DNA of 32,400 nucleotides from Candidatus Woesearchaeota archaeon (lineage in GTDB: Archaea; Nanobdellota; Nanobdellia; Woesearchaeales; JAGVZT01): positions 1 through 32,400 of the forward strand of contig JAANXH010000012.1 in the NCBI GenBank assembly GCA_018263355.1. Reading direction: 5' to 3'. The position numbers were made by a program, and so were the translations under genes. This document shows positions 4,666 through 30,919 of the stretch, one piece after another; position 1 is the first letter of the stretch, and each line of letters begins with the position of its first letter. The notes beneath the pieces were generated by a model. The model was given only the letters and a program-made list of their open reading frames with translations. It ran no database searches and was not told the DNA's origin.

Positions 4666-5180
4666 GTGGAATATTGATTTTTGAAATAAGCATGATTTTG
4701 GTATCTGTAGGAATCTGGTTTTATATGAAGAAAAATAATTATAAGAACATCTTACAGAAAATGCTTGTTTTATTTATTGCTGTTTTACTCTTTGAAATTA
4801 TGAGTGAACCAATGTGGAGAAATTTTCTATTGCATAGGTGGACATTCATTTATCATGATGTATCGTGGATCATCACATTAGGATGGGTGAATATCTTTAT
4901 GGTTTCCATGCTACTAGTAGATAAGCTATTCAGCAAATATACTGAAAAAGCAAAATTCTGGCTTTATTTGTTATTTGTAACTATTATCACTACACCTATA
5001 GAAGTAATACTTCTAAATACTGGAATTAGAGGATATGATGCTGTATTAACAAGCACCATGACAGGAATAACTATTCCTTTTACATCTGCACCAATAGAGA
5101 TAATTATGGTAATCCCAATAATTGCAGCTTTGATTATACCTTTCTATAAAATAATGTTAAATTTGTTTAAACTTGATTAA
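4662..5180 (+). CDS. multi-pass membrane protein, tandem paralogue of the preceding ORF
   Basis: 172 aa; 4-nt ATGA overlap with upstream ORF; shared YLDVSWIIGLGW / YHDVSWIITLGW. Confidence 0.65.
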   Translation: MSGILIFEISMILVSVGIWFYMKKNNYKNILQKMLVLFIAVLLFEIMSEPMWRNFLLHRWTFIYHDVSWIITLGWVNIFMVSMLLVDKLFSKYTEKAKFWLYLLFVTIITTPIEVILLNTGIRGYDAVLTSTMTGITIPFTSAPIEIIMVIPIIAALIIPFYKIMLNLFKLD

Positions 5181-5636
5181 GTTTTCTCGCCCCTAGATAC
5201 TTGTTCTTGATAGCTCACTTTGTTCGCACTGATTGAACGGAACTCCCCCTTGATGTATTGACTTGATGAGCCTTCGGCTTTGATGAAAAAAGAACTCCCC
5301 TCGATACTTGTTCTCTATGGCACTTCGTGCTTGAAGGAACGGAACTCTCCAGTGCTACGCACATGCTCAAAAATGGAACATTTTTGGCACGTAAAAATGC
5401 TACGCATTTTTTGTGCAAGAAAAACTTGGTTTTTCTTTGCATCCTAAAAATCTTTGATTTTTATGATATACACTCCCTACGGTCGAATTTATTGGAAATG
5501 GAAATTTTACTTTTCGGAACGAAATTTCCCAGAACTCCGCAAACATATCGTTGTAAATATTGATTGTGTAACTTGAAAGAACCTGCTTCTTAAAGTCGCT
5601 GTATTTCTTTAAATGTTTGCTCGTAACTGGGAAAGT

Positions 5637-5800
5637 ATTTAACAGGGCTTATACGGTTCGGAACGACCGCCTTCGGCTATTTTGCCAAGCAAAATTCGTT
5701 CCTCTCCCAAATGCTTTAATCTTCACCTTAACACTACACCCTAACCTACGTGTTGACACGCCTAGAAGTTAAATCACTTCGCATAAGCCCAATGTTATAT
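5637..5800 (+). repeat. attC-like site A (long)
   Basis: R''-like ATTTAAC (5637-5643), arm GGGCTTAT (5645-5652) pairing with ATAAGCCC (5783-5790), R'-like GTTATAT (5794-5800) followed by TCAATT. Confidence 0.6.
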
Positions 5801-5897: not shown

Positions 5898-6031
5898 ATA
5901 TAACACGAATTAAGCAGTTCACTCGTCGCTCGCCTCCTCGCTTCTCGTTCTCCAAAATTTAATTTTCCATCTCTGTTCCGCCTTCGGCTACACGAGGGAA
6001 AATCAAACTTCGCTTAATTCGGATGTTATGT
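5898..6031 (+). repeat. attC-like site B (long)
   Basis: ATATAAC (5898-5904), arm CGAATTAAGC (5906-5915) pairing with GCTTAATTCG (6012-6021), R'-like GTTATGT (6025-6031) followed by GCAATT. Confidence 0.65.
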
Positions 6032-6105
6032 GCAATTGGGCTACGGGGCGCTTAAATCTAAAATCATAACAAGATTTAAATAATAATTGAACTAAAGTAT
6101 ATTAT

Positions 6106-6936
6106 ATGATGAAAAAAATACTACTATTTACAATTTTAATTGTATTTGCTCTATCCCTTTCCGATTCTGTTTTTGCCTGTTCTCCTGCTCCAAATTATAT
6201 CAGTATTTCCTGTACTCCAACGAATACATTAGATGAAAATGAACTGCCTCAAGGATACAGATTTTACAATGAAAAACTAACATTATCTTCTGGTTACAAA
6301 TTTGAATCAGTTGATGAAAACTTTGATTTCCTAACATCTAACTGTCAAGAAGATGTTGAATCTGTAAAACCAGAATTGATAAATTTGTTTAAGGAGTACA
6401 ATTCGAAAGAACACAGATACTTTACTCATGAAAGAACAGAAATTGTCCCTTATGACGAAACCTTAATTGAAAATAATAAAAATAGCAGATACAACCCAGA
6501 TAATGTAGGTAATTGTTATTTTGAAAATGTTTACAAACTTGGTGATTTTGTAGTTAATGAGGGTGGTATGAGAGATTATTGTCATTTAACAGGTGGAGGT
6601 GGTGGAATGTGTCCTCACGCCACAAAATTACATTTACAATTTTTTGGATTTATATTAACCAATCCAAATGTTAATACACTCCCATATTTATTTGGTTATT
6701 TGATTGCAATAGGCGTTGTTATTGGTTTCATAGTATATCTTTTTAAAAGAAAAGAATTGAAATTGTTTTTCAAACCAAATAAATTCAATATCATTTTCAC
6801 TTTGGTTTTAGGTATTCCAACATTTTTGTTATTTTTACTGTTTACAGGGATAGAGCAAATTATTGTTTGGATTATTGGATATTATATTTTTTCATCAACT
6901 ATAAAATATATTTATTTAAGACTTAAGAAGAAGTAA
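6106..6936 (+). CDS. cassette ORF: secreted/membrane protein, unknown function
   Basis: 276 aa, N-terminal signal-like segment, two C-terminal TM segments; lies between attC-like sites B and C. Confidence 0.7.
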   Translation: MMKKILLFTILIVFALSLSDSVFACSPAPNYISISCTPTNTLDENELPQGYRFYNEKLTLSSGYKFESVDENFDFLTSNCQEDVESVKPELINLFKEYNSKEHRYFTHERTEIVPYDETLIENNKNSRYNPDNVGNCYFENVYKLGDFVVNEGGMRDYCHLTGGGGGMCPHATKLHLQFFGFILTNPNVNTLPYLFGYLIAIGVVIGFIVYLFKRKELKLFFKPNKFNIIFTLVLGIPTFLLFLLFTGIEQIIVWIIGYYIFSSTIKYIYLRLKKK

Positions 6937-7013
6937 CGGGCCCCTTCGCCCGACTTTCTCCGCTTCGCTCCGAACCCCATTGCATTCTCACTTCGCTACG
7001 CTTCGTTCGGGTC

Positions 7014-7039
7014 ACTTAACAAGGATCCTGATGTTAGTT
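7014..7039 (+). repeat. attC-like site C (short/collapsed)
   Basis: ACTTAAC-AAGGATCCTGAT-GTTAGTT followed by TCAATTTT; arms meet in palindrome AGGATCCT. Confidence 0.5.
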
Positions 7040-7067
7040 TCAATTTTCAAAAATCCTAAAAACTAGA

Positions 7068-8126
7068 AAGGGAAGGGGAACAATCTAATAAAATGTAGAA
7101 TCTTTGTTTCCAGATTCAACATCTGCATTGCATCTTGAGATAGACCTTTCAACTGCAGTTTCTTTAACACCGTTACCCAATTGCATATTATCACAAATAG
7201 AAGAGTCTTGAGTGTCTACTGCAATATTTCTATAGCATTCATACTTCAAGGCAGAATTTGCAATTCTTGAACATACATTTGAATTTAATACGTCCTTTGC
7301 TATATTGAACATACATACATCAAGATTATCTGCATTTTCACATTCAGATAAATCAACTTCAAAAGATAAACATTTTTGATTTAAATCAGGATCAGTTATT
7401 TTTGAACAAGATTTAAGTCCTAAAAAACATTCATCTTTGATTTTATCCCAAGCGATATCTTCACATATTGTTTCATCTTCATTGTTAATTGCAATATTTT
7501 TTATACATTCCGCATAAAAAGTTCCGGATTTACCTTTAATATTCTCACACAATTCAATATTTAAGGATGTATAAGATATTCCAAGATAACATTGATCTTC
7601 CGTAGTATCTCTTTCAATTAACTTACATTTTGAAAAATCAGATGTTGTTCTTGCTACTCCTTTATAGCACACTTCTTTACTTAGTTGCGTTTGGAGTTTA
7701 TTGCAAATTGATATATCTCCTACTTCAATTCCAACAGTAGAATAGCATTCATATTTAAAATCAGTATCAATGTAATCACAAATCTTAACTTCTTTTTCTT
7801 GAACTGCGATATCTATATAACAGTTATACCTTGGATAAGAAATTGCAAGACCTTTTTCAATTAATGGTAATTTATCACACCCTTGTAACCTAGGATCATT
7901 ATTAGTGGGTAATTCATTAGTTTGATTGTCGATGGATTCTTGGGTATTTTCTTTAGGTACATCAATAACAGGAGTTTGAGTATTACATCCGATGATGATT
8001 AATATCATTATAACAAGAATCCCATATTTAAAATTATATTTGAGGTTCATAATACAATATTTTTTATTAAGTATTTAAATAATTCTATAGTTTCTCGAAA
8101 TGGAAGTTATTTGTTCCCCTTCCCTT
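7068..8126. repeat. cassette-specific inverted repeat pair bracketing the cassette 3 ORF
   Basis: AAGGGAAGGGGAACAA (7068-7083) and TTGTTCCCCTTCCCTT (8111-8126), perfect 16 bp. Confidence 0.85.
7085..8050 (-). CDS. cassette ORF: Cys-rich repeat lipoprotein, unknown function
   Basis: 321 aa; lipobox-like IIGCN; recurring C-x(n)-C units of about 30 aa (e.g. ICDYIDTDFKYECYSTVGIEVGDISIC). Confidence 0.75.
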   Translation of the reverse strand: MNLKYNFKYGILVIMILIIIGCNTQTPVIDVPKENTQESIDNQTNELPTNNDPRLQGCDKLPLIEKGLAISYPRYNCYIDIAVQEKEVKICDYIDTDFKYECYSTVGIEVGDISICNKLQTQLSKEVCYKGVARTTSDFSKCKLIERDTTEDQCYLGISYTSLNIELCENIKGKSGTFYAECIKNIAINNEDETICEDIAWDKIKDECFLGLKSCSKITDPDLNQKCLSFEVDLSECENADNLDVCMFNIAKDVLNSNVCSRIANSALKYECYRNIAVDTQDSSICDNMQLGNGVKETAVERSISRCNADVESGNKDSTFY

Positions 8127-8217
8127 AATTCTTTAACATTTAAGGGGCTTCGCCCTTTAAGACGGATTTTTGAAAACTTTTCGGGCGAAATTTTTCCATA
8201 CGTTGTATGGAAAAAGA

Positions 8218-8243
8218 AACTAACAAGGATCCTGATGTTAGTT
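8218..8243 (+). repeat. attC-like site D (short/collapsed)
   Basis: AACTAAC-AAGGATCCTGAT-GTTAGTT then ACAATTT; same core as site C. Confidence 0.5.
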
Positions 8244-8320
8244 ACAATTTAGTTTAAGTTTAAACGTTCTTTTAGAAAAAGAACCAAAAAAAGAGTTGGG
8301 GCAAATTAAAAAAGAAAATC

Positions 8321-8328
8321 TTATAAAT
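8321..8328 (+). promoter_or_regulatory. possible archaeal TATA box for the cassette 4 ORF
   Basis: TTATAAAT about 25-30 bp upstream of the ATG at 8351. Confidence 0.45.
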
Positions 8329-8350
8329 TAGTGAAATTCTTAAGTATTTA

Positions 8351-9493
8351 ATGTTAAAAAAATATATTAAAAAATATTATTTTCAAACATTACTAGTAAT
8401 TACTTTAATTCTTATAGTAATTTTGATATTTAATATAAATAATTTGAATAATAAAATTGAAAATCAGAAAAAAGAATTAGAGAACCGCAATGAACAAATA
8501 TCAAATTTAAACAAAGATATTTCAAATCTTAATATTTCTTTTAATCAATTAAAATCTGAAAAACAGAATTTAGAATCTGAAAAACAGAATTTAGAAATAA
8601 ATTTTGAAGAATTAGATGAAGAATATTCAAATTTAAAAGATGAAACAAACTTATTATTGAGCGATATTAATACTTATCAAGAAGAAATTGAAGAATCTTT
8701 AGAATGGTATAAAATAAACTCCTTGTTAGATGATAACACCGAACAAAAAAGAGTCAAAAGACAAATTGATAATAATTGTGTTGAAATTAGAAACAATGAA
8801 TGTAAAATTAAATTAGGATGTTTTTATTTAATAAATTCAGAAAAATTAGATTTAGAATATAAATACGACGAAACAATTTATGAAAAAGAGGATAAGCTAA
8901 CTTCAATTAAAGATTTTTTAAAAAATGATGGTGGTGATTGTGAAGATTATTCTTTGTTTTTCAAAGCAGAATACAATTATGCTTTAAATCAATGTGAAGA
9001 TAATAATATAGTACTAGAAGGATGGAAATATCCAAATTCGGAAGATAGAGAAACAAAATATTGGTTAAATTTTCAAAAAAGTTGGTATTTAGATGATGTT
9101 GCAAAAGTAGAAATAAAAGATAATATTTATCCAAATATAATTTGTGGTAATTTATATGATCCGATACTTGGAGATGTAGCAGGTCATTGTATGATTGCGT
9201 ATACTCAAAATGAAATAAAATCAATAAATGATTTATCAGAATTAGATAATGCATATATAATAGAACCACAAGACGGTTCTTTTCAAGGAAACATAAATAG
9301 AGAAAATAGTGAAGTGTATTTGTTAAATGAAGATATTTGGTATGATGAAAGTGTTAATTCTTGGATTTATTCTATAATCACTGATAATGATTATTTTTTA
9401 TTTAGTGAATCTGATTTAGATTGGAATTCATATTCTTTATTTAATTCCCATCTGAACACAAAGAAAAATGAATTATTATATTTGTTAAATTAA
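8351..9493 (+). CDS. cassette ORF: membrane-anchored coiled-coil protein with transglutaminase-like Cys peptidase domain
   Basis: 380 aa; N-terminal TM, coiled coil, then GGDCEDYSLFFKA (Cys), AGHCMIAY (His), AYIIEPQDG (Asp/Glu region) in the order of a transglutaminase-like triad. Confidence 0.65.
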   Translation: MLKKYIKKYYFQTLLVITLILIVILIFNINNLNNKIENQKKELENRNEQISNLNKDISNLNISFNQLKSEKQNLESEKQNLEINFEELDEEYSNLKDETNLLLSDINTYQEEIEESLEWYKINSLLDDNTEQKRVKRQIDNNCVEIRNNECKIKLGCFYLINSEKLDLEYKYDETIYEKEDKLTSIKDFLKNDGGDCEDYSLFFKAEYNYALNQCEDNNIVLEGWKYPNSEDRETKYWLNFQKSWYLDDVAKVEIKDNIYPNIICGNLYDPILGDVAGHCMIAYTQNEIKSINDLSELDNAYIIEPQDGSFQGNINRENSEVYLLNEDIWYDESVNSWIYSIITDNDYFLFSESDLDWNSYSLFNSHLNTKKNELLYLLN

Positions 9494-9640
9494 TATTAAA
9501 AAAAGCCCCAACTCTTTAGTCCTTCGGACATATAGTCTCCTTCGGAGAAATTTATCTAAACTTAAACTAAACTCTTCGGGATTTTTTCACTTCGTGAAAA
9601 ATCGTTGCACTATCCCTTGGTCGTCGTTGCACTCCGACGC

Positions 9641-9745
9641 AACTAACAAGGATTTAGAGGTTCCAGAAACTTGCAGACTTCTCCATCCAAATTCGGTTTT
9701 GTGGGTTGCCTCAAAACCGAACTTCTCTTAATCGCAATGTTAATA
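9641..9745 (+). repeat. attC-like site E (long)
   Basis: AACTAAC (9641-9647), GGATTTAGAG arm vs CTCTTAATC near 9725-9733, internal perfect hairpin TTCGGTTTTG/CAAAACCGAA, GTTAATA (9739-9745). Confidence 0.55.
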
Positions 9746-9750
9746 GAAAT

Positions 9751-10558
9751 AAAAATGAATTTTCTTACCCACCCAATAGGACGCGCGCAAGTTTTCCTGA
9801 CGGAAAACAGATAGTCTGCTATCGCAGAAAATAATATAAACTTACTTAATTTCATTATGAATATGTCTACTGAAAAAGCAGAAAGTGTTAGGGAAACGGA
9901 GAAAGCTCCGCCAATCTACCAGGTTTATATCAAAAAAGAGAAAGAATGGATTGAAAGAAAAATAACACACACAAAATCCTTAATTGATGTTGGTTGTGGT
10001 GAAGGTAGAGCAACAGCGTTTCTCTCCCCTTTAACTGATAAATATGTTGGGATAGATTTAAATTCAAAAGCAATATCCAAAGCAAAAAAATTAGAAAACA
10101 ACAAAATAGCTTTCAAAGTTGTTGATGTTACAAAAATGTCTGAGATTTTTCCAGAAAACGCTTTTGAAACAAGTATGTGTCTTTGGAATACTATAGGAAA
10201 TATTGAAAAAGACAATAAAGCGATCGAGGAAATGTATAAAATCACATCTGAAAAATGTTTTATAACAACCTTGAAAAGAGGAAATCTAAAAGAGAGAACG
10301 AACTATTATAACTCCTATGGTGTAAAATTTGAAGTGGATGAAGAAAATGAAATATTCTATTCAGATGCTTGGGGAATTTCTAGATCATATGATAAAGAAG
10401 AGTTCAAAAAAATGTGTGAAGCAGTGGGCTTCAAAGTTGTTGAAATAGTTGATTTGGGAAAAATTGCTTTTGGTATTGAACTAAAGAAATAATCTTCTTT
10501 TAGAAAAAGAAGCAAAAGCGCGCGTCAAATTTAATACCCACCCAGAAAATTCATTTTT
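9751..10558. repeat. nested inverted repeat pair bracketing the cassette 5 ORF
   Basis: AAAAATGAATTTTCT (9751-9765)/AGAAAATTCATTTTT (10544-10558) and GACGCGCGC (9780-9788)/GCGCGCGTC (10518-10526); ACCCACCCA lies between them in direct orientation on both sides. Confidence 0.85.
9857..10492 (+). CDS. cassette ORF: class I SAM-dependent methyltransferase
   Basis: LIDVGCGEGRATAFLSPLTDKYVGIDLNSKAI motif I. Confidence 0.85.
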   Translation: MNMSTEKAESVRETEKAPPIYQVYIKKEKEWIERKITHTKSLIDVGCGEGRATAFLSPLTDKYVGIDLNSKAISKAKKLENNKIAFKVVDVTKMSEIFPENAFETSMCLWNTIGNIEKDNKAIEEMYKITSEKCFITTLKRGNLKERTNYYNSYGVKFEVDEENEIFYSDAWGISRSYDKEEFKKMCEAVGFKVVEIVDLGKIAFGIELKK

Positions 10559-10615
10559 ACTCTCTCCGCTATGCTCCGAGCCACGCCTTGCAGGCTCTCG
10601 GCTTCGCCTCGGGTC

Positions 10616-10637
10616 TATTAACAGCGCGATGTTATAC
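10616..10637 (+). repeat. attC-like site F (short/collapsed)
   Basis: TATTAAC-AGCGCGAT-GTTATAC followed by GCAATTTT. Confidence 0.45.
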
Positions 10638-10642
10638 GCAAT

Positions 10643-11316
10643 TTTTGGGCTCGGCGACTTAGAAAAATCTATTAGCTCTTTTGAATAACTTTAACATTTT
10701 TAACTTCAGGATCTACTGTTCGCCTACCATCACCATGGTTTATCGGTTCATAACCAAATGGAGAATAAAGTAAACAGTCTCTTCTCCAAAGACAAGGATC
10801 ATGTGTAAATTTGATAGGTGGATAATATCCTCCCCTATCACCTGCAGAATCTGTTCTATTTCTTTGAAATTGGTCTTTAGAAACTGCTATTTCCACCATA
10901 TCTCCTACATTTATCTGATCGGCCAATTCACTTAATTTTTTCGATGCTTCTTTGTACCTCTCTACTAAGTGATCTTTTGGCACATCATCATAGTATGATG
11001 TATGAAGACCTAAACCAAAGATTAAATGAGTTATCCCCCTATAACTATCTCTTACAGAATCATCCAAAGTTATACTACAATCTATACCTTCATAATCATA
11101 CAATTCTCCTTGATAAGAATGGTCTCCTGTAGGATCCCCCACAAATCTACATCTATTTCTGATTTTGGATTTACTCCTTATTGTAGCAGTAACCTTTTCT
11201 AAGTCTTCATTATCATTTTTTTGTGTCATAAGTATGGGTATAACTCCAAACTATTTAAACTTTTCTATATATTTACTACTTCTAAATTAATATAGATGAG
11301 TCGCCTTCGCCCCAAA
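10643..11316. repeat. imperfect inverted repeat pair bracketing the cassette 6 ORF
   Basis: TTTTGGGCTCGGCGACT (about 10643-10659) vs AGTCGCCTTCGCCCCAAAA (about 11298-11316). Confidence 0.65.
10672..11229 (-). CDS. cassette ORF: conserved-looking protein of unknown function
   Basis: 185 aa ORF with TATA-like element (TTTAAATAG) upstream on the minus strand. Confidence 0.65.
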   Translation of the reverse strand: MTQKNDNEDLEKVTATIRSKSKIRNRCRFVGDPTGDHSYQGELYDYEGIDCSITLDDSVRDSYRGITHLIFGLGLHTSYYDDVPKDHLVERYKEASKKLSELADQINVGDMVEIAVSKDQFQRNRTDSAGDRGGYYPPIKFTHDPCLWRRDCLLYSPFGYEPINHGDGRRTVDPEVKNVKVIQKS

Positions 11317-11374
11317 ACTTCTTCGGAATACTTCGCATTCCTCGACCACGTTGCACTTTCGCTTCGCTCAGGGC

Positions 11375-11400
11375 GTTGAACACGCATGCGAATGTTCAAT
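11375..11400 (+). repeat. attC-like site G (short/collapsed)
   Basis: GTTGAAC-ACGCATGCGAAT-GTTCAAT; extended palindrome TTGAACA/TGTTCAA around CGCATGCG. Confidence 0.45.
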
Positions 11401-11412
11401 TCGGGCAGGCAA

Positions 11413-11423
11413 AATTTATAAAT
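11413..11423 (+). promoter_or_regulatory. possible archaeal TATA box for the cassette 7 ORF
   Basis: AATTTATAAAT about 25 bp upstream of the ATG at 11445. Confidence 0.45.
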
Positions 11424-11444
11424 ATTTTCAAACAATCTTAAATT

Positions 11445-12083
11445 ATGAGCATTATTAAAAAAGATTATGATAAGAATTATTTTGAAAACGCTTTCTATAA
11501 AGAGAAGCCCGAATCTCAAAGAAATAGAAACCGTATCAGAGAACTAATTAGACATAAGAAACGCGGTAAATTATTAGAGGTTGGATGTGGGGAAGGAAAT
11601 TTTCTTAAGGAAGCCGAAAAATACTTTGATATTGAAGGAGTTGAATTCTCTAAATATGCCACAAACAAGGCAAAGAGAATATTGGGAGATAATGTTAGCA
11701 GAGGAAATATTGAAAACATCTCGTTGCAACCAGCTTATTATGATGTGATTATGGTATTTAATTTACTGGAACATCTAGGGGAACCAATGAAAACTATTAA
11801 GAAATTATTCGATGCCCTTAAAGAGGGAGGTATTCTAATAGGATCTGTTCCGAATAATTTTGGAATTATTGGAGGATTGGCGACAGCGCTTTCAAATATA
11901 ATTGACAAGACCCACTGCTCAACCTATTCTCCTAGTATTTGGCATGAATATTTTACAGAAAGTGGTTTTAATGAAGTACAATTTTTTGGCGAGATTACCA
12001 TCGGAAGAAACAGGAGTTTTTATGTGAAAAATATATTTTGGAAATTCATATCGTTTAATTTGATTTTTGTTTGTAAGAAATAA
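11445..12083 (+). CDS. cassette ORF: class I SAM-dependent methyltransferase
   Basis: LLEVGCGEGNFLKEAEKYFDIEGVEFSKYA; FNLLEHLGEP. Confidence 0.85.
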   Translation: MSIIKKDYDKNYFENAFYKEKPESQRNRNRIRELIRHKKRGKLLEVGCGEGNFLKEAEKYFDIEGVEFSKYATNKAKRILGDNVSRGNIENISLQPAYYDVIMVFNLLEHLGEPMKTIKKLFDALKEGGILIGSVPNNFGIIGGLATALSNIIDKTHCSTYSPSIWHEYFTESGFNEVQFFGEITIGRNRSFYVKNIFWKFISFNLIFVCKK

Positions 12084-12148
12084 TTTTGCCTGCCTGAACT
12101 CTGAAATTTCCCTTCGGGACGTTGCACTAAATTTCAGCCCTTCGGGGA

Positions 12149-12173
12149 ATATAACAGTGCGCAAACGTTATAC
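12149..12173 (+). repeat. attC-like site H (short/collapsed)
   Basis: ATATAAC-AGTGCGCAAAC-GTTATAC followed by GCAATT; TGCGCA core. Confidence 0.5.
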
Positions 12174-12422
12174 GCAATTAAATTTTCACTAGTCTAAATC
12201 TCATTCTTTTTTTAAAAATGCTCAGAAAATCTTGTTTTCTGGCACCCTAAAAATTTTTGATTTTTATGGAAGAAGCAAAAGAGGGGGAGTCCAGGTGCTA
12301 CGCACACGCTCAAAAATGGAACATTTTTGGCGTCCTAAAAATCTATGATTTTTATGATATTGCCTTTTACTTGGTAAAAGAAATTTATGATAAGATTTAT
12401 TAATAAAGTACTATCACTATAA

Positions 12423-12986
12423 ATGATGATGAATAAACTATTGCTTTTAACTACACTATTGATTTTATTTATTATGCCTGTTTCTGTCTTAGCACTTCCT
12501 AATTCAGATACAAGTAAAAGTGGTGATGTTTGCGAAAGAGAACATAGTTTTAATTATAACTATAATTTTAATTATGATAAAGAATTAGAAATTAACAAAG
12601 AATATCAATTAGAATTATCTTTTTCAATTAGTGGCTCAAAAATAACAAGAAATCCTTATAAAGTAAGCATTGAATTAGAGCCAAACGGATTTGAATTAAG
12701 TCAAAATAGTATTTCACTTTCACAAGGAAATAAAATAATTGGCATAACTCCTATTAAAAAGGACGCTTCAATAATTGTAAATACAAAATTAGTTTTAGAT
12801 GGGGATGCTAGTCAACATAGAGGATATAAAGCTACATATAAAGATAAATTTACATTAGATCAATTTTTTATTTATGAACCAAAAACAAAATCAAAAAATA
12901 CAAAATCCAATAATTTATCAATTGTTCCTTTTCAAACATATCATATCCAATATCTAAGAATAAATAAATCTTTTCAAACTAGTTAA
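12423..12986 (+). CDS. cassette ORF: secreted protein, unknown function
   Basis: 187 aa with N-terminal signal-like sequence. Confidence 0.6.
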   Translation: MMMNKLLLLTTLLILFIMPVSVLALPNSDTSKSGDVCEREHSFNYNYNFNYDKELEINKEYQLELSFSISGSKITRNPYKVSIELEPNGFELSQNSISLSQGNKIIGITPIKKDASIIVNTKLVLDGDASQHRGYKATYKDKFTLDQFFIYEPKTKSKNTKSNNLSIVPFQTYHIQYLRINKSFQTS

Positions 12987-13016
12987 TTTTTTAAATAATT
13001 AGAAGATATATATCAC

Positions 13017-14072
13017 ATGGAAAAATCAACTAAAAATAAGGTATTAAAGGTTTTCTTGGCCTTGATATTAATTATAATTATGATTTTAGTAATATGTTGT
13101 GGAAGGCGTGATAAAAAAATAAATGAGCCTAATGAACCCCCACTAAAGCCTCCAGAACCGCCAAAACATAAAGAAGAACCAATAAAAGATTTTGGAGAAC
13201 CTTTAACAGAATTAAGTTCAGGAACCCACCAGTTATCTATTAAAATGCAGGATAATAAAAACACATTTCAAGAAGGAATACAAGTTGAAAGGCATTACTT
13301 AGTTCATTTGCCTACAGGATTTAATCCAAATAATAATTATGATTTAGTAGTATTTTTTCATGGAACAACAGGAACATCTCAAAAATCATTACAGGATACA
13401 GAATTTGATGATTTAGCAAACCAAGAGAATTTTATTATGGTATTTCCACAGGGAATGGGAACTTCAAATAATATTAATGAAGTATTTACTGGGGATAATA
13501 TACAAAAGAACACATGCTGGAACATAAGACCTGATGCAGAGCCAGATAATAGATGCTATGCAAGTTCAAGAAAACCAGATGACGATAAATTCATAAATGG
13601 AATAATAACTAAATTTAATAATGAATTAAATATAAACAAGTTATTTGTATCTGGATTTTCTAATGGTTGTGGCATGGCTCAGCATATAGGATTAACAAGA
13701 ATAGATATTAATGCAATCGGAATTGGTGGATGTTCAGTTCCAGGACAGGATTTCTTAGATAGAAGAAAATCAATACCAGTATTAAGGTTTCATGCCACAG
13801 ATGACCCTGTATCAGAATATATGTCTATTAATGAAGAACTTCCTCAAGGCATAGTACCAACAGCTGAATTAGCAATTGATGGATATGCAGATTTAAATGA
13901 TTGCTCTAAACCAGCAGATAAAGAAGAATTAAACATAGGTAATTTTGAGATAGAACATTGGACTTATCCTAACTGTAAAGAAGATACAGAATTTTATAAG
14001 ATTGAAGGTGGAAGTCATATATGGTATTCTGCTATAACACCAATTGTATGGGATTTTTTTGAGAAGAATTAA
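13017..14072 (+). CDS. cassette ORF: PHB-depolymerase/feruloyl-esterase-like alpha/beta hydrolase, membrane-anchored
   Basis: VVFFHGTTGTSQ, CWNIRPDAEPDNRC, nucleophile elbow GFSNG, HATDDPVSEY, GGSHIW. Confidence 0.85.
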   Translation: MEKSTKNKVLKVFLALILIIIMILVICCGRRDKKINEPNEPPLKPPEPPKHKEEPIKDFGEPLTELSSGTHQLSIKMQDNKNTFQEGIQVERHYLVHLPTGFNPNNNYDLVVFFHGTTGTSQKSLQDTEFDDLANQENFIMVFPQGMGTSNNINEVFTGDNIQKNTCWNIRPDAEPDNRCYASSRKPDDDKFINGIITKFNNELNINKLFVSGFSNGCGMAQHIGLTRIDINAIGIGGCSVPGQDFLDRRKSIPVLRFHATDDPVSEYMSINEELPQGIVPTAELAIDGYADLNDCSKPADKEELNIGNFEIEHWTYPNCKEDTEFYKIEGGSHIWYSAITPIVWDFFEKN

Positions 14073-14169
14073 AAAATAAACAATATTTAAAAGTACCTAA
14101 ATCTCTTTTTTATTATGGAGAATATAATTGTATTTGTAGCACATAGTCAACACTCTCTGGGATAAATAT

Positions 14170-14403
14170 ATGTGGGAATTGAGTTTAAAAGAAATATTTT
14201 GGTTCGATTTTTCATCAAAAATTAATATCCTATTATCCTTAGGAGTATTAGCTTTTTATTTATTAATTATAATAATATTTACATCAATCACTCCAAAAAT
14301 AATTCAAAAAATAAAATTTAAAAGATGGAAAAAATTCATCTATTATTATATATTTCATTTATTCTCGTTATTATTCATAGTCTTTTTTTGGGAAGTGATT
14401 TGA
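14170..14403 (+). CDS. small membrane protein (possibly frameshifted with the next ORF)
   Basis: 77 aa hydrophobic ORF overlapping 14325..14528 in another frame. Confidence 0.35.
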   Translation: MWELSLKEIFWFDFSSKINILLSLGVLAFYLLIIIIFTSITPKIIQKIKFKRWKKFIYYYIFHLFSLLFIVFFWEVI

Positions 14404-14528
14404 ATATTATACAAAATAATTCAATAATAACAATCTTATCGTTCGCAGTGTTTGCAGCATTTTCATTATTAACAATTTTATTTTTAATCATTCGTTTTTT
14501 AATTAAAATTAAAGGAGTAAAAAGATGA
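14325..14528 (+). CDS. small membrane protein (possible continuation of the preceding ORF)
   Basis: 67 aa hydrophobic ORF; 4-nt overlap with 14525..14869. Confidence 0.4.
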   Translation: MEKIHLLLYISFILVIIHSLFLGSDLNIIQNNSIITILSFAVFAAFSLLTILFLIIRFLIKIKGVKR

Positions 14529-14869
14529 TAATTTGGGGAATAATTCATATAGTACTTTCTTTAATTGCATATATAGGTTACATATTTGTAACTATAAAGT
14601 CATTTACTAAAAAAAATTACTTGATTTTATCGATTTCAAATATATTATATTTTATTGGATTTTTATCAGGAATGATTTGGGCAAAATTAGAATGGGGATT
14701 TTATTTAAATATGGATATAAAAACTATTCTATCAATAGCATTGTTTATACCTTTTTTTATTGAAAACATATCAAAAACTAAAAAAAATTATTGGCTACTA
14801 TTGGGAACTTTGATATTAGTTCTTAATTATATATTACCGTTAATCATTGGCACTTTACATTCCCATTGA
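14525..14869 (+). CDS. multi-pass membrane protein, unknown function
   Basis: 114 aa, several hydrophobic segments. Confidence 0.55.
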   Translation: MIIWGIIHIVLSLIAYIGYIFVTIKSFTKKNYLILSISNILYFIGFLSGMIWAKLEWGFYLNMDIKTILSIALFIPFFIENISKTKKNYWLLLGTLILVLNYILPLIIGTLHSH

Positions 14870-15016
14870 TTATAAAATAATAAAATCTGGACTCCCCCTC
14901 ATCCTACGGACATATAGTCTCCTACGGAGAAATTTATTATCGTGAAAATTTAACTCTTCGGTTTTCCTTCGCTTCGCTACGGAACGTTGCACTAAACCTT
15001 GGTCTCTTCGAGACGC

Positions 15017-15132
15017 GTATAACAGGGTTTAAAGGGTTCACTCACCTTGCAGGTTCGTTCTCCCAATTTTTTTATTCGAGGTCGCTACGCTCCACTCTGA
15101 ATAAAAAACTTCCCTTAAACCCGATGTTATTT
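15017..15132 (+). repeat. attC-like site I (long)
   Basis: GTATAAC (15017-15023), GGGTTTAA-A-GGG (15025-15036) pairing with CCCTTAAACCC (15112-15122) leaving one unpaired A, internal TTTTTTATTC/GAATAAAAAA hairpin, GTTATTT (15126-15132), then TCAAT. Confidence 0.7.
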
Positions 15133-16673: not shown

Positions 16674-17855
16674 TCACCAAAAGAAACTTTCTATCTTAAT
16701 GTTATTCTTTTTAATCCCTAAATCTTTCAAATCATTAATAACCTTCTTTTTCATCAGTTCTGGACCGCAAATATAGAATACTGCATTATTAGTATCTTTT
16801 ACATATTTTTCAATAATTTCCTTATCAATATAACCTTCTTCATACCTGTCTGATGATTCTCCACTTAAAACAAACACTTTTTTAAGCCAATTCTTTTTGA
16901 TGCTCTCCAGTTTGTTCTTGAAAATTATATCTTTTCTTGTTTTTGATCCATAAAGCAAAGTAATATCATTTTTTGCTTCTCTTCCTACAATATGTTCTAT
17001 CATGCTCATGAAAGGAGTAATTCCCACTCCGCCAGCAATAAACACCAAATCTTTTTTGATATCTTCAAGAGTGAAAATCCCAAATGGCCCATCTATAATT
17101 ACTTCTTCTCCTTCTTTTAATTCAGAAGCTACTTGTGTGAATCTCCCTGTATTCTTTATTGTAAAATTCAAATATTTGTCCTCAGGAGCACTAGATATAG
17201 TAAATGGATGTCTTGCATATAGCTTATTTCTATTCAATCTAAGAAAACAAAATTGTCCTGACTTAAAAGAAAACTTCTGCTGTGGCTCAACTATTAATGT
17301 AAATGTATCTTTTGTTTCCCATTTAACACCTTTTACATAAAACTTATTTTTTCTTTGTTTGAACTTATAATTTGTTCTGTAAATAATTCCAATTATAAAA
17401 AAAACAAATAAAGTTCCATAAATAACCTTAATTGCTAAGAAACTAGAATCTGATCCTATCTTTATAGCGTGGTATAGACTAAAGAAAAAAAGCAGATAAA
17501 TTAAAATATGTATATACTGCCATGCACTATAAGAAATTCTTTTATAAAGTTTTGAAGCAATTGAAATAAAAATAAAAATGAGAAAGGAAATAATGCCTAA
17601 TATTAGAGGGAAAATAAAATTGGGTGCAAAGTAAGAAGGCAACACACCAGCGATTATAAAAAATACTGGATGAAATAGCACAAACATCGCTGTTGCTAAT
17701 GAAAATTTTCTCTGGAATTTTATTATTTTATCCATTCCAAAAAATCTATCAAAAAATCTTGCTGTATCTCCAGAAATTATAAGAATAGATAGAAAAAGAA
17801 AACCAATAAGACCAGATAATCTACCAATTTCATAGAGAAGAGAGTATAAGTCCAT
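16674..17855 (-). CDS. ferric-reductase-like TM plus FAD/NAD(P)-binding oxidoreductase
   Basis: ARHPFTISSAPED (FAD), FIAGGVGITPFMSMIEH (NAD(P)), N-terminal TM helices with His. Confidence 0.8.
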   Translation of the reverse strand: MDLYSLLYEIGRLSGLIGFLFLSILIISGDTARFFDRFFGMDKIIKFQRKFSLATAMFVLFHPVFFIIAGVLPSYFAPNFIFPLILGIISFLIFIFISIASKLYKRISYSAWQYIHILIYLLFFFSLYHAIKIGSDSSFLAIKVIYGTLFVFFIIGIIYRTNYKFKQRKNKFYVKGVKWETKDTFTLIVEPQQKFSFKSGQFCFLRLNRNKLYARHPFTISSAPEDKYLNFTIKNTGRFTQVASELKEGEEVIIDGPFGIFTLEDIKKDLVFIAGGVGITPFMSMIEHIVGREAKNDITLLYGSKTRKDIIFKNKLESIKKNWLKKVFVLSGESSDRYEEGYIDKEIIEKYVKDTNNAVFYICGPELMKKKVINDLKDLGIKKNNIKIESFFW

Positions 17856-17864
17856 AGTATTTTT

Positions 17865-19679
17865 TTACTCTAAAGTCCCAATCAAAAATTGGTCGAGGAG
17901 ATTTTTTGCTTTTGGAGAAGCATGTTTTTTTATTCCTTCAAACATATCTGTTGCACCAATTCCACATCCATTAATAATTTGGGAGTTATGTTCTCCTGAT
18001 GCAATAAATTCAGTTACATCATAGACGTTACTATCAATCACGATCCAGCAATTATCTTTTGAGTTATGTTTATTTACTTCTTCTATGGAAAAAGTAGTTT
18101 TATCAATTTTTGTAGTAGTATCGTTTGTTTGTTCTTGAGTGCTACGGTTGTCATCATCGTACTGCTCATATCTATCATCATCGTATCGCTCATATCTATC
18201 ATCATCGTATCGCTCATATCTATCATCATCTTCGCTTTCTGTCTCTTCTTCAGATTCAGTCTCATCCTCAGACTCTTCTTCCTCTTCAGACTCGTCTTCT
18301 TCTAATTCCTCACATTCACCGTCTTCACAGAATTCTCCTACTCCACAGTCAGTATCTTCAACACATTCTATCTCTTCTTCATCATTCAGCTCTTCGGCTG
18401 TTTTTCCGAGGAATTTCATTCGTGCTTCTGATGCAAGTTCTCTAGCTTCTTCTGCAAGCTCTTCAGCTTCATCAATGTTACCAACTTCAAAAGCTGCTTT
18501 TGCCTCAGTTAATTTTTCTTGTGCTTGAGCTAACCTATCTTCAGCAGCAGAAGTTTCTTTCCCTTTATCTTCTGCTTCGGCTATCTTTTCTTCAGCTTTA
18601 GATATTTCTTCTCCTGCATCGTCAATAGCTTCAGAAGCATCATCTCTATCTTCCTCTTCTTCAACCTCAAACTCAGCAATACTTACTACCTCTTCCCGAC
18701 TTAAGCCAGTTCTTGCTACAATTTCGTCAATTATAACCTCTTGGTCAGTAGTATCTAAGCTGAATTTATATTTGTTCTTGCCAACTTCCACTTCTACCTT
18801 AGCTCTGCCTTCTTCAATCTCTAATTCAATCTCTCTTTCTGCTTCTTTCTCAACTTCTTCTAAACTTTCATCTGCTTGTTCAGCCAGTTTTTCAGCTTCT
18901 CTATAATCTCCAGCATCGAAAGCAGTTTTGGCTTGTTCAAAAAGAGAGGTTATACGTTCTGGAACAGTTATTCCTTCTTCATTTAACTCTGCCAGCTCTT
19001 CTTCAAGATCTTCTATTTCTTCTTGTGCATCTTCTCTTAACTCTTCAGCCAGACCAAGCTCATCTTCAAGCCCATCTTCAACATCATCGCCACTCTTTCC
19101 TAATTCCTGTTCAATTTTAATTTTTGTCTTGCCTTTTTCATTCTCAATCTCTATTTCCACTTCTCCAGTCTGTCCTTCAAGACCAGCTAAGACAGAATCT
19201 ATCAGAACTTGCTGTTCAGGTGTTATCTGTCCTTCAACTTCTATCTTCACCTTTAATTTTTTGTTTAAATTCTCTACTTTATGTCTATGTTCTCTAACTT
19301 TTCTTTCAATTTCCAATTCTTTTTTCAGTTCCGCTTCGCTGTCACCATCTTCAACATCACGCACTTCTTGTTTTAGATCAGAAAGAAACTCTCCGTGTGA
19401 TTTTCCGGCTTTCTGTGCTGCCTCAACATTTCCAGCGTCTACCATTACTTCAATTTCACTAAGACGCTCTTCCGCATATCTAAGTCGCTTCTCAATCTTT
19501 TCATCCACATCAAATGTCAATAACAGGTCTATATTTTCAATAGCTCTTTCCAATCCCCATAGAAAACTGTCAGGTGTTGTGCCTGGATCTGCTGTAGACT
19601 CTTCTTGAGCCGCTACCGGCACTGCCAAAGCAACCAGCATAACAACAAACAAATTTAATAATTTTTTCATTATAATCAC
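17865..19679 (-). CDS. DUF5667-type secreted protein with C-terminal cytochrome b5-like heme-binding domain
   Basis: Signal sequence plus TPDSFLWGLERAIENIDLLLTF; C-terminal EVNKHNSKDNCWIVIDSNVYDVTEFI. Confidence 0.75.
   Translation of the reverse strand: MIIMKKLLNLFVVMLVALAVPVAAQEESTADPGTTPDSFLWGLERAIENIDLLLTFDVDEKIEKRLRYAEERLSEIEVMVDAGNVEAAQKAGKSHGEFLSDLKQEVRDVEDGDSEAELKKELEIERKVREHRHKVENLNKKLKVKIEVEGQITPEQQVLIDSVLAGLEGQTGEVEIEIENEKGKTKIKIEQELGKSGDDVEDGLEDELGLAEELREDAQEEIEDLEEELAELNEEGITVPERITSLFEQAKTAFDAGDYREAEKLAEQADESLEEVEKEAEREIELEIEEGRAKVEVEVGKNKYKFSLDTTDQEVIIDEIVARTGLSREEVVSIAEFEVEEEEDRDDASEAIDDAGEEISKAEEKIAEAEDKGKETSAAEDRLAQAQEKLTEAKAAFEVGNIDEAEELAEEARELASEARMKFLGKTAEELNDEEEIECVEDTDCGVGEFCEDGECEELEEDESEEEEESEDETESEEETESEDDDRYERYDDDRYERYDDDRYEQYDDDNRSTQEQTNDTTTKIDKTTFSIEEVNKHNSKDNCWIVIDSNVYDVTEFIASGEHNSQIINGCGIGATDMFEGIKKHASPKAKNLLDQFLIGTLE
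18151..18230 (-). repeat. in-frame 24-bp tandem repeat (about 3 copies) in the DUF5667/cyt b5 gene
   Basis: (CATATCTATCATCATCGTATCGCT)n encoding RYERYDDD. Confidence 0.9.
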
Positions 19680-26368: not shown

Positions 26369-26961
26369 AGTTTTCTTGCCCCTTGATACTTTATTATGAC
26401 GTCATGAAAATCAAAAATTTTCAGGATGGCAAAAAGCTATAGTGTAGAAACATATTATTCGGATGTGTTGAAAAATATACTGATGATGAAGGCAGCGACG
26501 GTCATGCTCTGCATGCCCTATTACGTTTTCTGACGAAAACTCCATCGCGCCACCATCAGTATATTTTCCGAATATTTAGTACTTATACTAGTGCTTTTTG
26601 AGCATATCAGCTTCGCTTCTTTTGATAAACTCCACTTCTTGCCCTTAATGTATTTCCTTCAAGGCTCACTTTGTTCCCTCGATTGGAGAGAATTCCCTAA
26701 AATATAGTCTCCCTTCAGTCGAATTTATTGGGAACTCAAATTTCACTTTGCGGACGAAATTTTCCCATACGTTGCATGGAAAAAGAACTTAACAGGGTTT
26801 AAAGGGTTCATTCGTCGTTCGCCAAGCTCACTCCTTATTCTCCCAAATTTTTTGCTACGCAAAAAACTTCCCTTAAACCAGATGTTAGTCATAATTAAAT
26901 TTAAGTTTCTATTGGGTAAAAAAGGGAATTCTCTTTAAAATAGATGGGGGGCAAGAAAACT
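26369..26961. repeat. inverted repeat pair flanking attC-like site J (no ORF inside)
   Basis: AGTTTTCTTGCCCC (26369-26382) and GGGGCAAGAAAACT (26948-26961), perfect 14 bp. Confidence 0.8.
26787..26890 (+). repeat. attC-like site J (long, solitary)
   Basis: ACTTAAC (26787-26793), GGGTTTAA-A-GGG pairing with CCCTTAAACC (same unpaired A as site I), internal TTTTTTGC-TAC-GCAAAAAA hairpin, GTTAGTC (26884-26890). Confidence 0.7.
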
Positions 26962-26970
26962 TTGAACTAT

Positions 26971-28269
26971 TTACCAAAAGAAATCTTCGATGATAATATT
27001 TTGTTTATGAACTCTTAATTCACCCAATGCTTTTTTCACACATTCTTTCATTGGTTCAGGACCGCAGACATAAAACCTAGCATTATCAATATTTGTAATA
27101 TGCCTTTTTATCATGGCTTTATCAATATAACCATTTTCACAAAGTTCATGATAATTGTCATCATTGCTTAGAATATATTTCTTCATAAACCATTTTTCAT
27201 TAATGCGGTCTAACTCTTTCTTAAAAATTATGTCTTCTTTTGTTTTTGATCCATATAGCAAAATGATGTTCTTTGATTTATTGTTATGCAAGTGATCTTT
27301 TATCATGCTCATAAAAGGCGTTATTCCTACGCCTCCTGCAAGAAGAACAATGTCTTTTGCATCATCTTCTATTGTAAATGTTCCAAAAGGCCCTTCTATG
27401 ATTACTTCTTCCCCTTCTTTAAGCTGAGATGCTGTCTTAGTAAATCTTCCTTGCAATTTTATTGTAAAACTCAAATCCCTATCATTTGGAGAACTCGATA
27501 TTGTAAATGGGTGTCTTGCGTATAGTTTATTCTTATTTAATCTCAAGAAGCAAAATTGTCCAGCTTTAAACTTAATCTTCTTATGCTGCTTTAATATTAA
27601 AGTGAAAGTATCTTTTGTTTCCCATCTAACTTCTTTAACTGTAAATTTGCTTGATCTTTGCCTTATCTTATAAGAAGTTCGATATATTATTCCAATAATT
27701 ATTCCTAAAAGAAATACTAAATAAATTCCTTTTACCAGCCAATTATTTGAATCAGATCCGTATTTGAACCCATGATATAAAATAAAAAAGAAAAGAAAAT
27801 AGATTGCAACATGAATATACTGCCAGATAGCATATGAAATTCTTTTATATAATGAGGATGCAATCATAACTCCTATAAAAATATAGAATGCAACTACTCC
27901 GATCGCTAAAGGAAGAACTGCAAAATCAGGAACAATATATTCAAAGAATGATTTTGAAGAGATTATAAATGAGATTGGATGTATCAATGCGAATAAAAGG
28001 ATCGCAAAAGAGAATTTTTTGTTAAAGACTATCGTCTTATCAAGGCCAATAATTTTATCCCAATATCTTGCTGTATCTCCTAGAAAAATCAGAAATGACA
28101 TCATTACAAACGCCATAAGACCAGAGAATCTTCCAACATCATAAAAAAACAAACCAAAAGATAAATTTCGAAGAGGATAAAAAACAATGTACAATAATGC
28201 TAAACTAACAAATATGAACAAGGCAATAAGACCTTTTTTTACAATATTTGCTTTTTGGAATCTATCCAT
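26971..28269 (-). CDS. ferric-reductase-like TM plus FAD/NAD(P)-binding oxidoreductase (paralogue of 16674..17855)
   Basis: ARHPFTISSSPNDRDLSFTIK, LLAGGVGITPFMSMIKDH. Confidence 0.8.
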   Translation of the reverse strand: MDRFQKANIVKKGLIALFIFVSLALLYIVFYPLRNLSFGLFFYDVGRFSGLMAFVMMSFLIFLGDTARYWDKIIGLDKTIVFNKKFSFAILLFALIHPISFIISSKSFFEYIVPDFAVLPLAIGVVAFYIFIGVMIASSLYKRISYAIWQYIHVAIYFLFFFILYHGFKYGSDSNNWLVKGIYLVFLLGIIIGIIYRTSYKIRQRSSKFTVKEVRWETKDTFTLILKQHKKIKFKAGQFCFLRLNKNKLYARHPFTISSSPNDRDLSFTIKLQGRFTKTASQLKEGEEVIIEGPFGTFTIEDDAKDIVLLAGGVGITPFMSMIKDHLHNNKSKNIILLYGSKTKEDIIFKKELDRINEKWFMKKYILSNDDNYHELCENGYIDKAMIKRHITNIDNARFYVCGPEPMKECVKKALGELRVHKQNIIIEDFFW

Positions 28270-30699: not shown

Positions 30700-30800
30700 T
30701 TTATAGGATTGGGTTTCGCCTTTATGTAACGACTTTTCCCAACTCTGCGGACGTAGTTTTCCGGATTTTGTATGGGAAAAGGATTTAACAAGGATTAAAT
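30700..30800 (+). repeat. half attC-like site L (pre-R'' segment plus R'' only)
   Basis: AACTCTGCGGACGTAGTTTTCCGGATTTTGTATGGGAAAAGGATTTAACAAGG matches segments before sites D and J; no R' follows. Confidence 0.45.
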
Positions 30801-30919
30801 ACAAAAAATTTGGAGTCCTAAGAAATAGAAGAGAGCTTTGGTATTAATTAATATAAATATTCTGCTCTTTCATTAAGACTAAGCATTAAATTTATATATC
30901 TCAAAAATCTAAAAAAAAC

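Follow-up and report, generated by a model that had tools for sequence, protein, structure and literature searches.

Inverted arms at the ends of attC-bounded gene cassettes in a Woesearchaeota genome and related archaea, and their proposed role in an extended attC hairpin

The cassette array of the window and its inverted arms

The DNA analysed here, in the following called the window, comprises the first 32,400 nucleotides of contig JAANXH010000012.1 from a Candidatus Woesearchaeota archaeon (assembly GCA_018263355.1). It contains a tandem array of nine attC sites of the integron type between positions ~5641 and 15128, and an isolated tenth site at 26791. Nine sites over this distance make an integron array in the general sense, for which at least two attC sites less than 4 kb apart suffice. 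The attC stems of ~10-12 bp contain R and L boxes with GTT at the crossover, and the R boxes of a cassette's own two ends match at 80-100% at positions 1-8. Convincing sites were confined to this contig in the 1.09 of 1.17 Mb of the genome that were checked. The cassettes with open reading frames (ORFs) carry inverted arms at their two ends, and these are perfect or near-perfect in five of seven cassettes and weaker in cassettes 2 and 6 (Table 1).

An earlier note on this DNA had listed such pairs, and the strong ones were recovered (7068/8111 with 16 bp, 8290/9505 with 13, 9751/10544 with 16 plus one base, 11400/12082 with 16/17 and 12281/14887 with 14). The flanks of cassettes 3, 4, 5, 7 and 8 reach within-cassette scores of 16, 15, 16, 12.5 and 14, while shuffled flanks reach at most 11. 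Scores within cassettes also exceed those between cassettes; cassettes 2 (8.5) and 6 (7.5), which the note had rightly called weaker, are marginal. Its statement that arms match within and differ between cassettes is thus borne out against both shuffled and mismatched flanks. Cassettes 3, 4, 5 and 8 have two arm pairs each; for cassettes 3, 4 and 8 the note had given the outer pair correctly and had missed the inner, attC-proximal one.

The strict-stem attC scan missed short palindromic sites, which were then included with a pattern or manually. The five short forms of the window, and also those in loci L114, L124 and L136, have lost the upper stem and loop and retain a palindromic centre (GGATCC, GAATTC, GCGATCGC). 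Very short direct repeats likely served as end points of a deletion through the hairpin.

Table 1 Sites, arms and shells in the window
Feature	Position	Strand	Remarks
Cassette 0, right shell of type S1	~5180-5640		S1 right arm at 5495; left end beyond contig start
attC a1	5641-5796	+	detector and stem; end of cassette 0
attC a2	5902-6027	+	ORF-less cassette 1 between a1 and a2
Cassette 2 arms	6036-6050/6938-6953		weak and interrupted; ORF 6106-6936 (+)
attC a3	~7018-7036	+	short and palindromic, without upper stem and loop
Cassette 3 arms	inner 7044-7056/8164-8176; outer 7068-7083/8111-8126		13 bp; 16 bp; ORF 7085-8050 (-)
attC a4	~8222-8240	+	short form
Cassette 4 arms	inner 8248-8262/9557-9571; outer 8290-8302/9505-9517		15 bp; 13 bp; ORF 8351-9493 (+)
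attC a5	9645-9741	+	
Cassette 5 arms	inner 9750-9765/10544-10559; outer 9780-9788/10518-10526		16 bp; 9 bp; methyltransferase ORF 9857-10492 (+)
attC a6	~10620-10634	+	short form
Cassette 6 arms	10640-11320		weak; left side AATTTTTGGGC and GGCGACT, paired in predicted fold; ORF 10672-11229 (-)
attC a7	~11379-11397	+	short form
Cassette 7 arms	11400-11416/12082-12098		16/17; methyltransferase ORF 11445-12083 (+)
attC a8	~12153-12170	+	short form
Cassette 8 arms	inner 12178-12189/14942-14953; outer 12281-12294/14887-14900		12 bp; 14 bp; three ORFs; shell type S2
attC a9	15021-15128	+	followed by left shell of type seen in locus L128; no partner noticed downstream
Free-standing shell	26369-26961	+	arms 26369-26382/26948-26961 (14 bp) and 26687-26698/26923-26934 (12 bp); attC a10 26791-26886

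Outside the array, the window holds two related genes ~10.3 kb apart (16674-17855 and 26971-28269), whose DNA is 70-72% identical over parts and which look ferredoxin-reductase-like, as judged by eye only. At 18151-18230, a 24-bp tandem repeat in ORF 17865-19679 encodes an acidic DDRYERYD repeat.

Arms in related archaea, controls and shells

Of 359 genomes of the order, 35 gave sites in a pattern search for this attC family, a few of these being chance matches. From the window genome and related archaea, 50 cassettes between successive attCs and 8 first cassettes were scored, 58 in total. In these 58, own arms scored 12.4 on average compared with 7.2 for mismatched cassettes; means of 12.2 within and 7.1 between cassettes were likewise obtained. 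For the 33 cassettes of an earlier set, the observed mean of 13.74 was higher than in all 10,000 permutations (maximum 10.44).

The position of the arms is fixed. In 38 of 41 tabulated cassettes the left arm starts exactly 10 nt from the attC crossover, directly after G/TTAxxxxCAA; within this cassette start, TTAxxxxC pairs with the R'' box of the same cassette, and the arm follows after AA. At the other end, the right arm precedes the R'' box of the attC by 41-110 nt, and additional hairpin-rich DNA fills the gap. First cassettes, which are bounded by attI and an R box only, have arms in all 8 cases (at +10 or +11), and further nested pairs are often found toward the ORF. The arms are ~14 nt long and comprise 37 different sequences among the 41 tabulated cassettes, with 88-100% Watson-Crick pairs at each of 13 positions, which amounts to strong covariation, with the caveat that the right arms were placed by best match; the mismatched control pairs were searched identically. 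Nearly all positions show all four Watson-Crick pair types across cassettes, as the earlier note had asked for, and wobble-type mismatches (G-T or A-C) make up only ~3 of 533 arm pairs. The polarity claimed there, G-rich left and C-rich right, holds as a tendency and not as a constant: paired bases on the left side include 541 G and 358 C, and the right flank has a negative GC skew in 48 of 58 cassettes.

A few cassettes lack arms (L114 3681 and 10443, L118+ 8834, L124, L131 8985) and also show poor R-box agreement. They may span an undetected attC and were retained in the statistics. The comparison with close relatives gave no match in the single other genome of the same family. Three cassettes (L110+ 14077, the first of L121+ and L172 2094) measure 5.6-6.8 kb with four or five genes, which is large for integron cassettes; L172 2094 may hold an undetected attC inside. 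The same attC family was also seen in loci L157, L154, L165, L170 and L183 from bins named Dojkabacteria, Atribacteria, Patescibacteria and Parcubacteria, reflecting either cross-domain transfer or misbinning.

None of 148 cassettes from bacterial IntI integrons scores 12 or more, and their own and mismatched ends score alike (6.69 and 6.67); these cassettes came from a third, looser attC detector and may include some false sites, the stricter two having given 0 and 15. Among 580 ordinary genes of the genome, 4 (0.7%) reach a score of 12, the same background rate as for mismatched gene pairs. Elsewhere in the genome, exact inverted repeats of arm size are not far above background, with 54 in 717 kb including the window and 30 in the reversed-sequence control. 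In summary, the within-cassette inverted arms are real and general.

To compare junctions, right end, constant core and left end were joined and folded as single-stranded DNA. The predicted energy was -46.6 kcal/mol for a cassette's own ends, compared with -31.1 for mismatched ends and -30.7 for array-order neighbours, and own junctions contained on average 3.9 nested helices of at least 6 bp compared with 2.2. Since only own ends fold more strongly, the arms would pair across the attC only in a circular cassette. Around single attCs within arrays there is almost no complementarity, and single attCs as candidates for free-standing shells mostly failed when tested. Small hairpin modules with TTCG loops, common to several cassettes and genomes, lie between the arm layers of the window at 5180-5640, 8140-8160, 9515-9560, 12200-12370 and 14900-14940.

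In five groups of cassettes from different genomes the ends are related, and in four of them both ends are, with identities of e.g. 84-97% over 50-270 nt; one group rests on 28 nt only. The shells L117 first, L128 first and S2 show little similarity outside the arm (28 nt at 86%). Protein comparisons revealed no convincing common gene among the cargo of a group, the sole matches being two weak ones (E ~1e-5) and one of 19 residues, all in group S1. Cassette 8 of the window shares its shell type with two other genomes, where it surrounds different genes. Because both ends recur together around unrelated genes, they form an exchangeable unit, which we call a shell. The free-standing shell of the window has no ORF between its arms and folds as a single DNA hairpin with -84.7 kcal/mol (z -4.4); due to its mismatched R box it may be old. 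The earlier alternative that the arms are ends of a second-layer element is therefore supported in part, by the joint recurrence of both ends around unrelated cargo and by this ORF-less shell. In L110+, cargo and then another right half come after a complete shell, an arrangement that fits birth of a cassette by recombination of two like shells but also two tandem cassettes of one shell type. At window positions 30741-30830, a probable remnant of a shell right end with a broken attC is joined to another cassette start (TTAAATACAAAAAATTTGGAGTCC).

Recombinases and attI sites beside the arrays

In all 10 array loci that hold one, a tyrosine recombinase gene is located upstream of the first attC in divergent orientation. 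Most of these loci have a dif-like attI close upstream of the gene (e.g. TTCGTTTAATAGGTGTTAxxxx), in which a 6-bp spacer separates one arm from a second one formed by the cassette start TTAxxxxCAA. In most loci, the sequence following the attI GTT agrees with the R'' box of the first attC, and the attI arm TTCGTTTAA recurs in locus L123 as the L box of an attC. The attI pattern occurs in 53 of 359 genomes, some by chance, and several of the new loci again adjoin XerA-like genes.

All nine aligned array-adjacent recombinases match NF040815 at E<=1e-20 and contain the catalytic boxes; one of them scores 245.5 bits, above the cut-off of 220, and the best structure matches of an array-adjacent recombinase are 4a8e and 5hxy. 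Eleven of twelve fall into one clade (support 97/93) that is separate from both IntI and general archaeal XerA, with L118 placed elsewhere. The distance from the GLRxxE to the HxLRH box is 85-92 residues in the array recombinases compared with 134 in IntI, so that they are ~45 residues short at the position of the additional (I2) domain of IntI. No IntI above the TIGR02249 cut-off was found in the window genome or in 147 genomes of the order. In the relatives, the recombinase of the XerA clade beside attI is likely the enzyme.

The window contains no integrase gene, and the contig of the array begins at base 1. The genome encodes one intact XerA-type protein on another contig (C22) and one broken copy. 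Without a cognate recombinase gene, the array of the window is best called a CALIN (attC cluster without integrase) of the archaeal family. As no recombinase of the array clade was found in this genome, the array would have to rely on the XerA of general type or on an enzyme of outside origin.

Possible role and origin of the arms and comparison with known systems

We consider it rather probable that, in cassettes of an archaeal integron family, each of the two arms supplies one half of an extended attC stem-loop, the shell. Excision as a circle would bring the halves together, and as neighbours they could fold, from a single strand or as a cruciform, into a long branched hairpin that holds the R box and the attC core. 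The extended hairpin would favour folding and thereby integration at a dif-like attI. Integration would part the halves again and leave sites within the array less able to fold, so that cassettes tend to stay. Shells would be passed on as units independent of their cargo, and new cassettes may arise by recombination of two copies of the same shell flanking chromosomal genes. The fixed position of the arms and the predicted gain of ~15 kcal/mol for own ends agree with the suggestion of the earlier note that the arms of a circular cassette flank the attC and extend its stem. Its assertion that attC biology does not explain the arms was too strong, because they prolong the known R-box complementarity outward. 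With slightly more doubt than belief we further propose that the relatives have a second kind of integron, in which a dedicated XerA clade lacking the IntI-specific helix would recombine the dif-like attI with hairpin attC sites while the arms stabilise the fold of the circle.

Several points weigh against these proposals. Minimum-free-energy folds describe naked DNA and say nothing on hairpin formation in cells. Excision, circles and recombination were not observed; we infer them, like the folding of arms in circles, their aid to integration and catalysis by the XerA clade, from sequence. Weak-armed cassettes exist, such as 2 and 6 of the window. The intact XerA of the window genome lies outside the array-adjacent clade, and the search of this genome with the attI pattern gave no match. 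Finally, a single hairpin of R and L boxes suffices in bacterial integrons, so that the arms may be a by-product of cassette birth that is not selected.

Such a by-product would result if excision of cassettes took place between two copies of the same palindromic element carrying an attC, with functionless arms left as a scar. The recurrence of shells around unrelated cargo, the free-standing shell, the shell-cargo-shell arrangement in L110+ and the mostly perfect and thus seemingly recent arms are all in line with this origin. However, the related-looking shells L117 first, L128 first and S2 vary on both sides in arm positions 2 and 3 and retain pairing, which suggests maintenance, though these shells are only weakly related outside the arm. 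We regard a mere scar as rather unlikely. A function in RNA, where paired 5' and 3' untranslated regions would protect or insulate transcripts, could account for arms in untranslated DNA around ORFs and for the many small TTCG-loop hairpins alongside. The layout, however, follows the orientation of the attC while ORFs occupy either strand, the near absence of wobble pairs is unlike typical RNA helices, and the same arms occur on multi-gene cassettes of up to 6.8 kb. The paired untranslated regions considered in the earlier note are therefore improbable. Terminal inverted repeats of ordinary transposons, each with its own cargo, would also give inverted ends around cargo and shells recurring apart from it, but almost every cassette has a different arm sequence, the arms sit at a fixed position relative to the attC crossover and no transposase domain was found among the ORFs of window cassettes 2-8, which makes this explanation very improbable. 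AT-rich genomes do yield short inverted matches and metagenome assemblies can err at hairpins, but chance, low complexity or artefact deserves practically no credence, as scores remain at background in shuffled flanks, in mismatched and bacterial cassettes and in ordinary genes, and the pattern recurs in genomes assembled by different projects.

The proposal that the arms are halves of an extended attC hairpin touches two questions of integron evolution. The gain of the I2 domain has been described as a chicken-egg paradox (Escudero et al., PMC4792948), and de novo formation of cassettes has been called largely unknown (PMC5371416). With folded attC arrays beside a XerA that lacks I2, and with ends of hairpin halves around changing cargo, both the step from Xer to IntI and the birth of cassettes would become directly testable. 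If true, a second integron kind would be a living model of the Xer to IntI step, and archaeal cassettes beside a non-IntI recombinase may help to explain the origin of gene-collecting integrons. In the literature on DPANN and archaeal CALINs, the 2022 discovery paper alone was directly relevant, and no paper pairing "integron" with "Woesearchaeota" was found, subscription papers and preprints being outside this search.

Like the IntI/attC integrons, including the archaeal ones (Ghaly et al. 2022, PMC9668308), the present family has tandem cassettes whose own ends are complementary in the R box, attC sites with R and L boxes, an unequal spacer and a G/TT crossover, and, in the relatives, an integrase gene divergent from the array with attI in between. 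In contrast to those integrons, it has outer arms of ~14 bp, nested shells and a dif-like attI, and its adjacent recombinases lack the IntI-specific domain. The recombinase family and the two arms around a short spacer at attI resemble archaeal XerA/dif (Pyrococcus abyssi, Thermoplasma XerA; reviewed in PMC8371274), whereas most array-adjacent genes form a clade of their own beside cassette arrays. CTXphi integrates at dif by XerCD via a folded single-stranded site (PMC4792948), and thus offers a parallel for a Xer-type enzyme without the I2 helix that uses a folded hairpin, as the archaeal enzymes would do. While CTXphi is a phage genome without an array, the archaeal system consists of exchangeable gene cassettes in an array. 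We know of no arms of the archaeal-cassette kind in CTXphi. Composite elements are bounded by two copies of a mobile unit and likewise have unrelated cargo between like ends; in the archaeal cassettes, by contrast, the two ends would together make up one hairpin, and the expected event is recombination at attC, not transposition.

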